From Candidatus Saccharimonadota bacterium (GTDB taxonomy: Bacteria; Patescibacteriota; Saccharimonadia; Saccharimonadales; Saccharimonadaceae), in contig WRLL01000006.1 in the NCBI GenBank assembly GCA_009777625.1, positions 1-49,252 on the forward strand: a stretch of 49,252 nucleotides of DNA, read 5' to 3'. Position 1 is the first letter of the stretch; every line of letters begins with the position of its first letter. The notes below the pieces were generated by a model that did no database searches, was not told the DNA's origin, and was given only the letters and a program-made list of their open reading frames with translations. Positions 7,710-10,079 of this stretch are shown here, one piece after another. The position numbers and the translations under genes are program-made.

Positions 7710-7919
7710 AAACTTCTCCCAATTGGTCTTCCTGAAATTAAATCAGGATTCGGTTAGTAATCGGGACGTTTCTTGCACCGCCGTCCGTGCGACAATTTAT
7801 GACAAGGATTTTTACAGAAGTTCCATGCTGCTGAAGTTCGTGATAGAACCTCGCGCGGGTAACTTACTTAATAATACTACTTTTTATAGTAGATGTCTAG
7901 TTGTGCTAAGATATATAAT

Positions 7920-10079
7920 ATGGAAAAGTACGAGGAAATCATCGTTGCGGCGATCAAGAAACTGTTCAACATCGATGCCGAAGTCAAATTGACCCGGCCC
8001 GAGGCAAGGTTTGGTGATTACGCAACCAATGCGGCACTGACAATAGCTAAGGAGGTTGGTGAAAATCCGCGCGAAATCGCCGAGGCTTTAGCGGCGGAAC
8101 TGCAGGGGAACGATGCGTTTTCCGAAGTCGCTATCGCCGGTCCGGGCTTTATAAACTTAAAAATCTCGGCGCGGCATTTGGCGGCGCAGTTGGAATCCTT
8201 GAACCAAGAAATCGATCCGGCCAACGGCGAATACGCTGGCAAAGTTGTTGTAACGGAATTCTCTGACCCAAATCCGTTCAAGGTTCTACATGCTGGCCAC
8301 CTCTACACTAGCGTAGTTGGCGATGCTGTCAGCAATCTGATCGAGGCAACGGGCGGCCGCGTCCATCGCGTGAATTACGGCGGCGACGTCGGGCTGCACG
8401 CGGCGAAAACTATGTGGAGTATCGTGCAATTCTTGGGCGGCGAATTTCCTGAAAAATTGAATGAAGTCGAAACGGCGCGGGCTGAATGGTTAGCGGCGCG
8501 CTATGTCGAGGGCAACACGGCCTATGAAACTGACCCTGCGGTTGCAGCTGAAATTAAATCCTTTAACAAACGGATTTACGATTTACACGCGACCGATGAT
8601 CACGACAGCGATTTCGCGAAAATTTATTGGGAATGTCGCCAGTGGAGCTACGATTCTTTTGAAGAATTTTATGCTCGGATTGGCGTCAAATTCGAGAAAT
8701 ATTATCCCGAAAGCAGCGTGACGGACTTGGGCCTGAAAACCGTGCGCGAGCAATTGGCCAAAGGCGTTTACAAAGAGTCGGACGGCGCGGTGATTTTCGA
8801 CGGCGAAAAGTTCGGTCTGCATACGCGGGTGTTCATCAACAGAGAAGGCCTGCCGACTTACGAAGCGAAAGAGGTCGGACTGAGCCTGACGAAATGGCAG
8901 GATTACCATTTCGACGAATCGATCATCATCACCGGCAGCGAACAGCAGGAGTACATGCAGGTCGTGCAAAAATCGATCGAGCAGTTTCGACCGGATTTGA
9001 CGTCAAAAACGCGACATTTCACCAACGGCTTGGTCAAAATGGCCGGTGGTGTCAAGATCAGCAGCCGAACTGGTCAGGGGATTCGAGCGGGCGAAGCCTT
9101 GGACATGACGGCCGACGCGCAGGAAGCGGCGCAGGGCAATCGTGAGATGAAGACAATCTTGGGCGCGATTAAATATGCTTTCCTGAAAAACAATATCGGC
9201 CCGGATCTGATTTTTGATCCGGCGATTTCGGTCAGTTTGACCGGCAACAGCGGGCCTTATGTGCAGTACGCCGCAGTTCGTGTGAACAAAATCTTGCGCG
9301 ATAACGACATGGCGATCAACCCAGAGAACTTGCCGGTCGTAAAGCGCGAAATCGTCGGCGGTTTTATCGTGTCGAATGACAAAAAGATTTTGTTGGGTGG
9401 AAATCGCGCGGGTGGCGTATATGAAGGCCAACTGATCGTGCCGGGCGGTGGCATTGACGGCGATGAAACAAAGATGGAAGCGCTGGCGCGTGAAATGCGC
9501 GAAGAGGTTGGCATAGATATCGCGAAGGCAAAAGTCAGCAAAATTCGTGTTTCTTCGGGCGGGGCCAGCAAGACTTTGCGCCAGGACGAACATGGTTTTA
9601 AGGCTGGCGATAGGGTTTGGGTTGACATGGCCTTTCATAATTATTTGATCGAATTTGATCAGCTGGCCGATGAAATTCCGGTGAAGGTCGAGGATGACTT
9701 TGATTACGCTGAATGGTTTTCGCGGGCTGAACTGGCGCAGAAGAATATGAGTCAGCCAACGGTGGAAACTCTTGGCTATATGGGCTGGCTGGATGATGAG
9801 AAATACGATCACGCGGCCGAAAAAACCTTGATCCTGAAATTGTTGGGATACCCCGAAATTTTACGCATCGCGGCGCACGAATATGAACCGCACCGGATTG
9901 CGACCTACGTTTACGAATTGGCGCGGGAGTTGAATCGCTATTATGAAACGACACCGGTGGCGACAAAGGATGTACCAGCGGATATTAAAGCGGCTCGGTT
10001 AGATCTATTATCAAGAATATCCGATATCTTCAACAGGAGCTTGGGGATCCTCGGAATAGACGTCCCAGAAAAAATGTGA
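7920..10079 (+). CDS. argS: arginyl-tRNA synthetase with an inserted NUDIX domain
   Basis: SDPNPFKVLHAGHLYTSVVGD, KMAGGVKISSRTGQGI, GPYVQYAAVRVNKIL, DALR-like C-terminus; NUDIX box GGIDGDETKMEALAREMREEVGI; start moved to MEKYEEII. Confidence 0.92.
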   Translation: MEKYEEIIVAAIKKLFNIDAEVKLTRPEARFGDYATNAALTIAKEVGENPREIAEALAAELQGNDAFSEVAIAGPGFINLKISARHLAAQLESLNQEIDPANGEYAGKVVVTEFSDPNPFKVLHAGHLYTSVVGDAVSNLIEATGGRVHRVNYGGDVGLHAAKTMWSIVQFLGGEFPEKLNEVETARAEWLAARYVEGNTAYETDPAVAAEIKSFNKRIYDLHATDDHDSDFAKIYWECRQWSYDSFEEFYARIGVKFEKYYPESSVTDLGLKTVREQLAKGVYKESDGAVIFDGEKFGLHTRVFINREGLPTYEAKEVGLSLTKWQDYHFDESIIITGSEQQEYMQVVQKSIEQFRPDLTSKTRHFTNGLVKMAGGVKISSRTGQGIRAGEALDMTADAQEAAQGNREMKTILGAIKYAFLKNNIGPDLIFDPAISVSLTGNSGPYVQYAAVRVNKILRDNDMAINPENLPVVKREIVGGFIVSNDKKILLGGNRAGGVYEGQLIVPGGGIDGDETKMEALAREMREEVGIDIAKAKVSKIRVSSGGASKTLRQDEHGFKAGDRVWVDMAFHNYLIEFDQLADEIPVKVEDDFDYAEWFSRAELAQKNMSQPTVETLGYMGWLDDEKYDHAAEKTLILKLLGYPEILRIAAHEYEPHRIATYVYELARELNRYYETTPVATKDVPADIKAARLDLLSRISDIFNRSLGILGIDVPEKM

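Follow-up and report, generated by a model that had tools for sequence, protein, structure and literature searches.

What is a nucleotide hydrolase doing in the middle of an arginyl-tRNA synthetase, and how did it come to be there? The question is raised by an argS gene at positions 7,920–10,079 (+ strand) of the window, the 49,252-nucleotide stretch of DNA analyzed here, which is contig C6 of a Saccharibacteria draft metagenome assembly (G000; 902 kb, 83.5% complete; its relatives carry the name Saccharibacteria). As a first-pass annotation of the letters had proposed, the frame is continuous. It opens at ATG 7,920, or at an alternative ATG at 7,893, and runs to 10,079 without a stop or frameshift, giving a protein of 719 amino acids. 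The product scores 312 bits against TIGR00456 argS (cut-off 261.65; E = 5.8e-93) and is the single arginyl-tRNA synthetase (ArgRS) match in the assembly. The same annotation placed a complete Nudix domain between the catalytic and anticodon-binding parts, an order that the Pfam matches confirm.

The inserted domain occupies residues 471–624 (9,330–9,791, +), bounds that follow from homology to free-standing proteins, with the Pfam NUDIX match covering residues 477–611 (1.9e-11). Its start is that given originally, but its end lies nearer 9,791 than the 9,805 first suggested. The Nudix box, GGIDGDETKMEALAREMREEVGI (9,447–9,515, +), is an exact GX5EX7REUXEEXGU, and its catalytic glutamates are invariant in an alignment with the free-standing Nudix proteins. 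The insert shares 34%–50% identity with the products of these genes and covers their full length, and its first codon (TTG) aligns with their start methionine. Because the alignment begins at that methionine and spans the whole homolog, we conclude that an entire gene was inserted. An internal translation start for the Nudix part was considered and rejected, as the aligned start codon, TTG in the window, is CTA in a related copy from another genome (G037, see below) and so is not shared.

In the ArgRS of relatives, a conserved GNSGPYVQYAAVRVNKIL helix is followed by a short linker (∼15–25 amino acids) and then by the anticodon-binding domain, with low-complexity inserts at the same loop in some gut lineages. 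The window protein has ∼150 additional residues after this helix, 3′ of which native ArgRS sequence resumes in frame. Overall and third-position GC contents of the insert (0.507 and 0.563) are intermediate between those of the ArgRS flanks, and composition is even across the junctions.

The first-pass annotation had also suggested structure prediction as a check, and this gave confident models of both parts. AlphaFold, run on the full ArgRS with 32 relatives in the alignment, returned predicted local distance difference test (pLDDT) values >90 over most of both insert flanks. It left the insert unmodeled, the alignment being missing there. Because MAFFT misplaced most of the viral Nudix rows in the full ArgRS alignment, the Nudix domain was modeled in isolation. 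Built with 19 viral Nudix relatives, the isolated model has a pLDDT of 86.4. Its best structural matches are the NudI structures 6dt3 (Z = 17.7, 142 residues, root-mean-square deviation 2.3) and 3oga (Z = 17.6), followed by MutT-like proteins and further Nudix hydrolases. The insert matches NUDIX only and has a soluble α/β fold; both its box and its fold make it a member of the Nudix hydrolase superfamily. It differs from NudI/MutT-type enzymes in being carried inside an ArgRS and in its score against the NudI equivalog NCBIfam NF012016, 46.7 bits versus a cut-off of 95, and is therefore NudI-like rather than filed as NudI.

By its domains, its equivalog score and its fold, the host protein is a class I ArgRS. 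An Arg_tRNA_synt_N domain (residues 3–81; 7,926–8,162, +; PF03485, 7e-22) precedes the catalytic domain tRNA-synt_1d (residues 107–403; 8,238–9,128, +; PF00750, 2e-28), within which alignment with relatives locates the HIGH-type motif HAGH (8,289–8,300, +) and the KMSK-type motif KISSRTG (9,054–9,074, +). The same alignment traces the end of the core through the conserved helix and an RDND linker (9,129–9,314, +), where pLDDT stays >90 to around residue 460. Beyond the insert lies the DALR_1 anticodon-binding domain (residues 627–719; 9,798–10,076, +; PF05746, 2.3e-22), with pLDDT of ∼86–97 from around residue 631. Compared with solved ArgRS structures in the PDB, the model reaches Z scores up to 35.7 across 541 residues; as modeled, the insert-bearing ArgRS retains its fold, and it most probably still charges tRNA-Arg. 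Near the KMSK motif (9,024–9,077), the protein differs from near-invariant residues (H369N, M380I, N386Q).

Close counterparts of the insert are few. The Nudix box is absent from all 90 other Saccharibacteria ArgRS loci. At E values of 1e-8 or better, its subfamily is found in 394 family genomes as free-standing genes of ∼150 amino acids in seven other genomes, in the window ArgRS and in one copy within an isoleucyl-tRNA synthetase (IleRS), that of G037 (L102), which belongs to another genus and holds the domain at the entrance of the CP1 editing domain. Most of the free-standing genes have a TATAGT-like element ∼6 bases 5′ of the ATG, which suggests leaderless transcripts. That the Nudix domains of ArgRS and IleRS are sisters was not upheld, the tree lacking resolution. 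Nor was a phage origin, viral contigs yielding distant Nudix relatives only (≤54% identity over short pieces, ∼19%–29% over the domain). At L303 (G046:C5:2034–4472), free genes for an alpha/beta hydrolase-like protein, a kinase-like protein and two Nudix proteins stand side by side, small accessory enzymes in a cluster that might act as a donor pool.

The IleRS of this family shows the same kind of architecture on a larger scale. Whole-domain inserts are present in at least 17 of the 187 IleRS-bearing family genomes (G000, G003, G006, G012, G021, G037, G039, G041, G059, G070, G075, G080, G096, G097, G101, G126 and G151), a lower bound given that reading was confined to the longest IleRS frames. 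Among these inserts, Pfam recognizes Nudix, His_Phos_1, low-molecular-weight tyrosine phosphatase (LMWPc), YunG, DUF553 transglutaminase-like, Ser_hydrolase/Abhydrolase and GNAT domains, together with a weak 2H-phosphoesterase match. Inserts in G012 and G039, which have no Pfam match, appear nucleotidyltransferase-like from a motif, and several others are of no identified type. Twelve genomes share one insertion site, at model position ∼227. Single proteins may hold several domains, with three enzymes in the IleRS of G041 (1,573 amino acids) and three inserts in that of G012 (1,478 amino acids). The ileS genes of G037 and G080 are 85%–88% identical in DNA sequence outside the site yet contain unrelated inserts within it. 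The catalytic motif is kept in 21 of 23 checked Nudix, protein tyrosine phosphatase and histidine-phosphatase inserts. The genome of the window is itself among these cases: its IleRS (L225; G000:C13:15118–18891, − strand; 1,265 amino acids) carries a histidine-phosphatase insert (Pfam 1.4e-33) in which the RHG motif reads VHG, as it also does in G075. A comparable insert is found in a single-contig genome (G070), and others in independent assemblies. ArgRS and IleRS loops of several genomes hold low-complexity peptides (RDNGSE..SEPRNDG, VIARSEATKQS; L077, L082, L130, L133, L144, L159 and L298), which look like translated palindromic repeats.

Long IleRS frames (1,124–1,480 amino acids) recur beyond the family, among 136 Patescibacteria genomes. 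In 9 of the 11 non-family loci read the insert is a histidine phosphatase (L292–L297, L299, L300 and L302 are loci with such inserts), located at model position ∼490–500 in eight and present as a tandem pair in two. Four of the nine were identified with Pfam (4e-35 to 7e-79), the others being assigned by motif and BLAST similarity. The IleRS of G438 has a GNAT domain at model position 544 and a histidine phosphatase at 672. A histidine phosphatase at the same site recurs across many Patescibacteria families, and the insert at ∼490–500 looks to be inherited within lineages, unlike the mixed inserts at 227. Other long proteins behave differently. In 151 family genomes no whole-domain lengthening was found in ValRS (longest frame 982 amino acids versus the usual 850–875) or in gyrA (909 versus ∼845), and no foreign domain was found in ten other long proteins of the window. 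The inserts therefore reflect neither a general looseness of long genes nor an assembly habit.

Small enzymes are also found upstream of ileS. A conserved, T-box-like leader lies 5′ of this gene; it contains the T-box core motif GATGGTACCG and a stem with TATC (isoleucine codon ATC), and in an alignment of 14 leaders compensatory changes are seen at 18 of the 30 predicted pairs. At gathering thresholds Rfam reported no T-box anywhere, and the element appeared only at a relaxed threshold and in the alignment; the G000 leader scores 40.1 bits against RF00230 (E = 1.1e-7), short of the gathering score of 93, and the relaxed search at L317 returned chance-level matches only. In some genomes, small enzymes similar in kind to the IleRS inserts stand as free genes between leader and ileS, namely GNAT (G000, G004, G036), NUDIX (G028, G101), HAD (G071) and NYN (G000) proteins. 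Variable small enzymes come after an isoleucine T-box-like leader, ahead of ileS, at L325, L308, L314, L317, L320, L321 and L304. Directly upstream of ileS there is a GNAT gene in G183 and a histidine-phosphatase gene in G025, the leader not being located at either. A T-box upstream of the window argS was looked for and rejected, with neither a T-box core motif nor an Rfam match in the window.

Recurrence, fixed loops, differing inserts in close relatives and mostly intact catalytic motifs together lead us to regard repeated capture of autonomous enzyme cargo into class I synthetase loops, with ArgRS-Nudix as one case, as a fairly probable explanation. Here, the sole ArgRS would have taken up a complete NudI/MutT-like pyrophosphohydrolase gene, with the reading frame kept, in a permissive loop on its surface that separates the catalytic core from the anticodon-binding domain, and the product would be a bifunctional fusion. 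The Nudix domain would most probably be an autonomous, tethered nucleotide pyrophosphohydrolase of the house-cleaning type. As one copy of it is made with every copy of an essential enzyme whose expression is constant, it would be hard to lose. In the wider process, small enzymes from a free-standing gene pool would be captured time and again, chiefly by IleRS, and replaced by others over time. Three parts of this reading are inferred: that both halves are active, which class of substrate is used and what is gained by tethering. Several observations weigh against it. Of 137 strongly conserved positions, 13 are altered in the window ArgRS, more than in any other of the 33 sequences compared, and its DALR domain has diverged further than the average, so a partial loss of ArgRS function is possible; and with the assembly 83.5% complete, a second ArgRS could have been missed. 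The single ArgRS-Nudix example allows no statement on conservation or selection of this fusion, and the poorly resolved Nudix tree does not establish that the ArgRS and IleRS captures were independent.

Might the domain instead serve the synthetase itself? The first-pass annotation had offered it a role specific to ArgRS, either in removing Arg-AMP or alarmones or in regulation of the enzyme, for which we found no positive support. Functional coupling, in which the Nudix domain would act on synthetase products (diadenosine tetraphosphate [Ap4A], other dinucleoside polyphosphates, misformed adenylates) or on uncharged-tRNA-Arg alarmones, draws on the ability of synthetases to make Ap4A, on Ap4A hydrolases among the structural matches (Z ∼15) and on the recurrence of phosphatases and GNATs in IleRS. 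However, the top structural match is NudI rather than an Ap4A hydrolase, the subfamily is mostly found as a free gene, and the same IleRS sites hold unrelated chemistries, a variety that argues against an arginylation-tied role. We consider coupling unlikely; the presence of the subfamily in IleRS, together with unrelated enzymes in the same IleRS loops, is better accommodated by autonomous cargo. A regulatory sensor, binding a nucleotide to alter ArgRS activity much as NrtR-type Nudix domains sense ADP-ribose, would be well placed to pass on a signal between the catalytic and anticodon domains, and the structural comparison also matched the Nudix domain of an NrtR protein (Z = 15.7). With a fully catalytic box, short linkers resembling a simple loop insertion and no conserved partner seen, we give this proposal little credence.

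Low-complexity inserts in the same ArgRS loop of gut Saccharibacteria, and the turnover of inserts between close relatives, are also what would be expected of a neutral or selfish passenger, a domain kept by chance and without useful activity in an insertion-tolerant loop. Yet the inserts are complete enzymes with mostly intact catalytic motifs, the histidine phosphatase returns to one IleRS site in many Patescibacteria families, and nothing similar is seen in ValRS or gyrA, which makes a mere passenger quite unlikely. An assembly or binning chimera, which a single ArgRS example in a draft metagenome might bring to mind, is very improbable in view of in-frame junctions on both sides with native ArgRS resuming, uniform composition, the same Nudix subfamily within IleRS in an independent assembly and a similar insert in the single-contig genome.

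The suspicion of the first-pass annotation that this is not a standard ArgRS architecture agrees with the literature, where no description of an ArgRS-Nudix fusion was found, nor any account of Saccharibacteria IleRS or of IleRS histidine-phosphatase or GNAT inserts, in open-access full text, which is weak evidence on such a point. Palindromic RPE-like elements, as in Rickettsia, are likewise in-frame insertions into protein genes and appear to resemble the low-complexity ArgRS and IleRS loop peptides of relatives; they encode short non-enzymatic peptides, whereas the window insert is a folded enzyme. NCBIfam NF040702 (ileS_w_GNAT; isoleucine--tRNA ligase, N-acetyltransferase domain-containing) names an IleRS with an enzymatic GNAT domain, but the IleRS compared here score 220–260 bits against its cut-off of 1,999, and it covers a single cargo type and neither ArgRS nor Nudix. 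Extra domains inserted into class I synthetases have been described before, the nearest case being CAAD, a membrane-anchor domain within class I synthetases of cyanobacteria (PMC4893482), which is reported to lie on the face of the enzyme away from the tRNA. The two systems share a class I host, internal positions, repeated recruitment and a host that is the sole copy (PMC4893482). The window ArgRS likewise has an extra domain inside a class I synthetase, assumed to be monomeric, but not a CAAD/CURT1 insert with transmembrane helices. CAAD is a single type of domain that anchors its host to membranes, a structural role; in contrast, the Saccharibacteria inserts comprise many soluble enzymes with no relation to one another, located mostly in IleRS and varying between close relatives.

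Few proteins are as conserved as the synthetases, which tend to be regarded as fixed. These reduced-genome bacteria repeatedly thread whole enzymes through the same few synthetase loops, with as many as three in a protein and different ones in close relatives. In such genomes, second enzymes are concealed behind long annotations of synthetases. It is possible, and we put it forward tentatively, that class I synthetases of Saccharibacteria and the wider Patescibacteria, above all IleRS under an isoleucine-specific T-box, act as a cargo bay for exchangeable enzymes. If so, enzymes placed in frame in a few fixed loops, or between T-box and synthetase, would gain starvation-linked expression, and the cargo would be shielded from loss and swapped over short evolutionary times, with ArgRS-Nudix a rarer outpost that has no T-box. 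It now becomes testable which loops accept a folded enzyme, whether accessory genes are guarded from loss when their products are tethered to an essential protein, and whether a small stress regulon is driven by isoleucine starvation sensed through a T-box.
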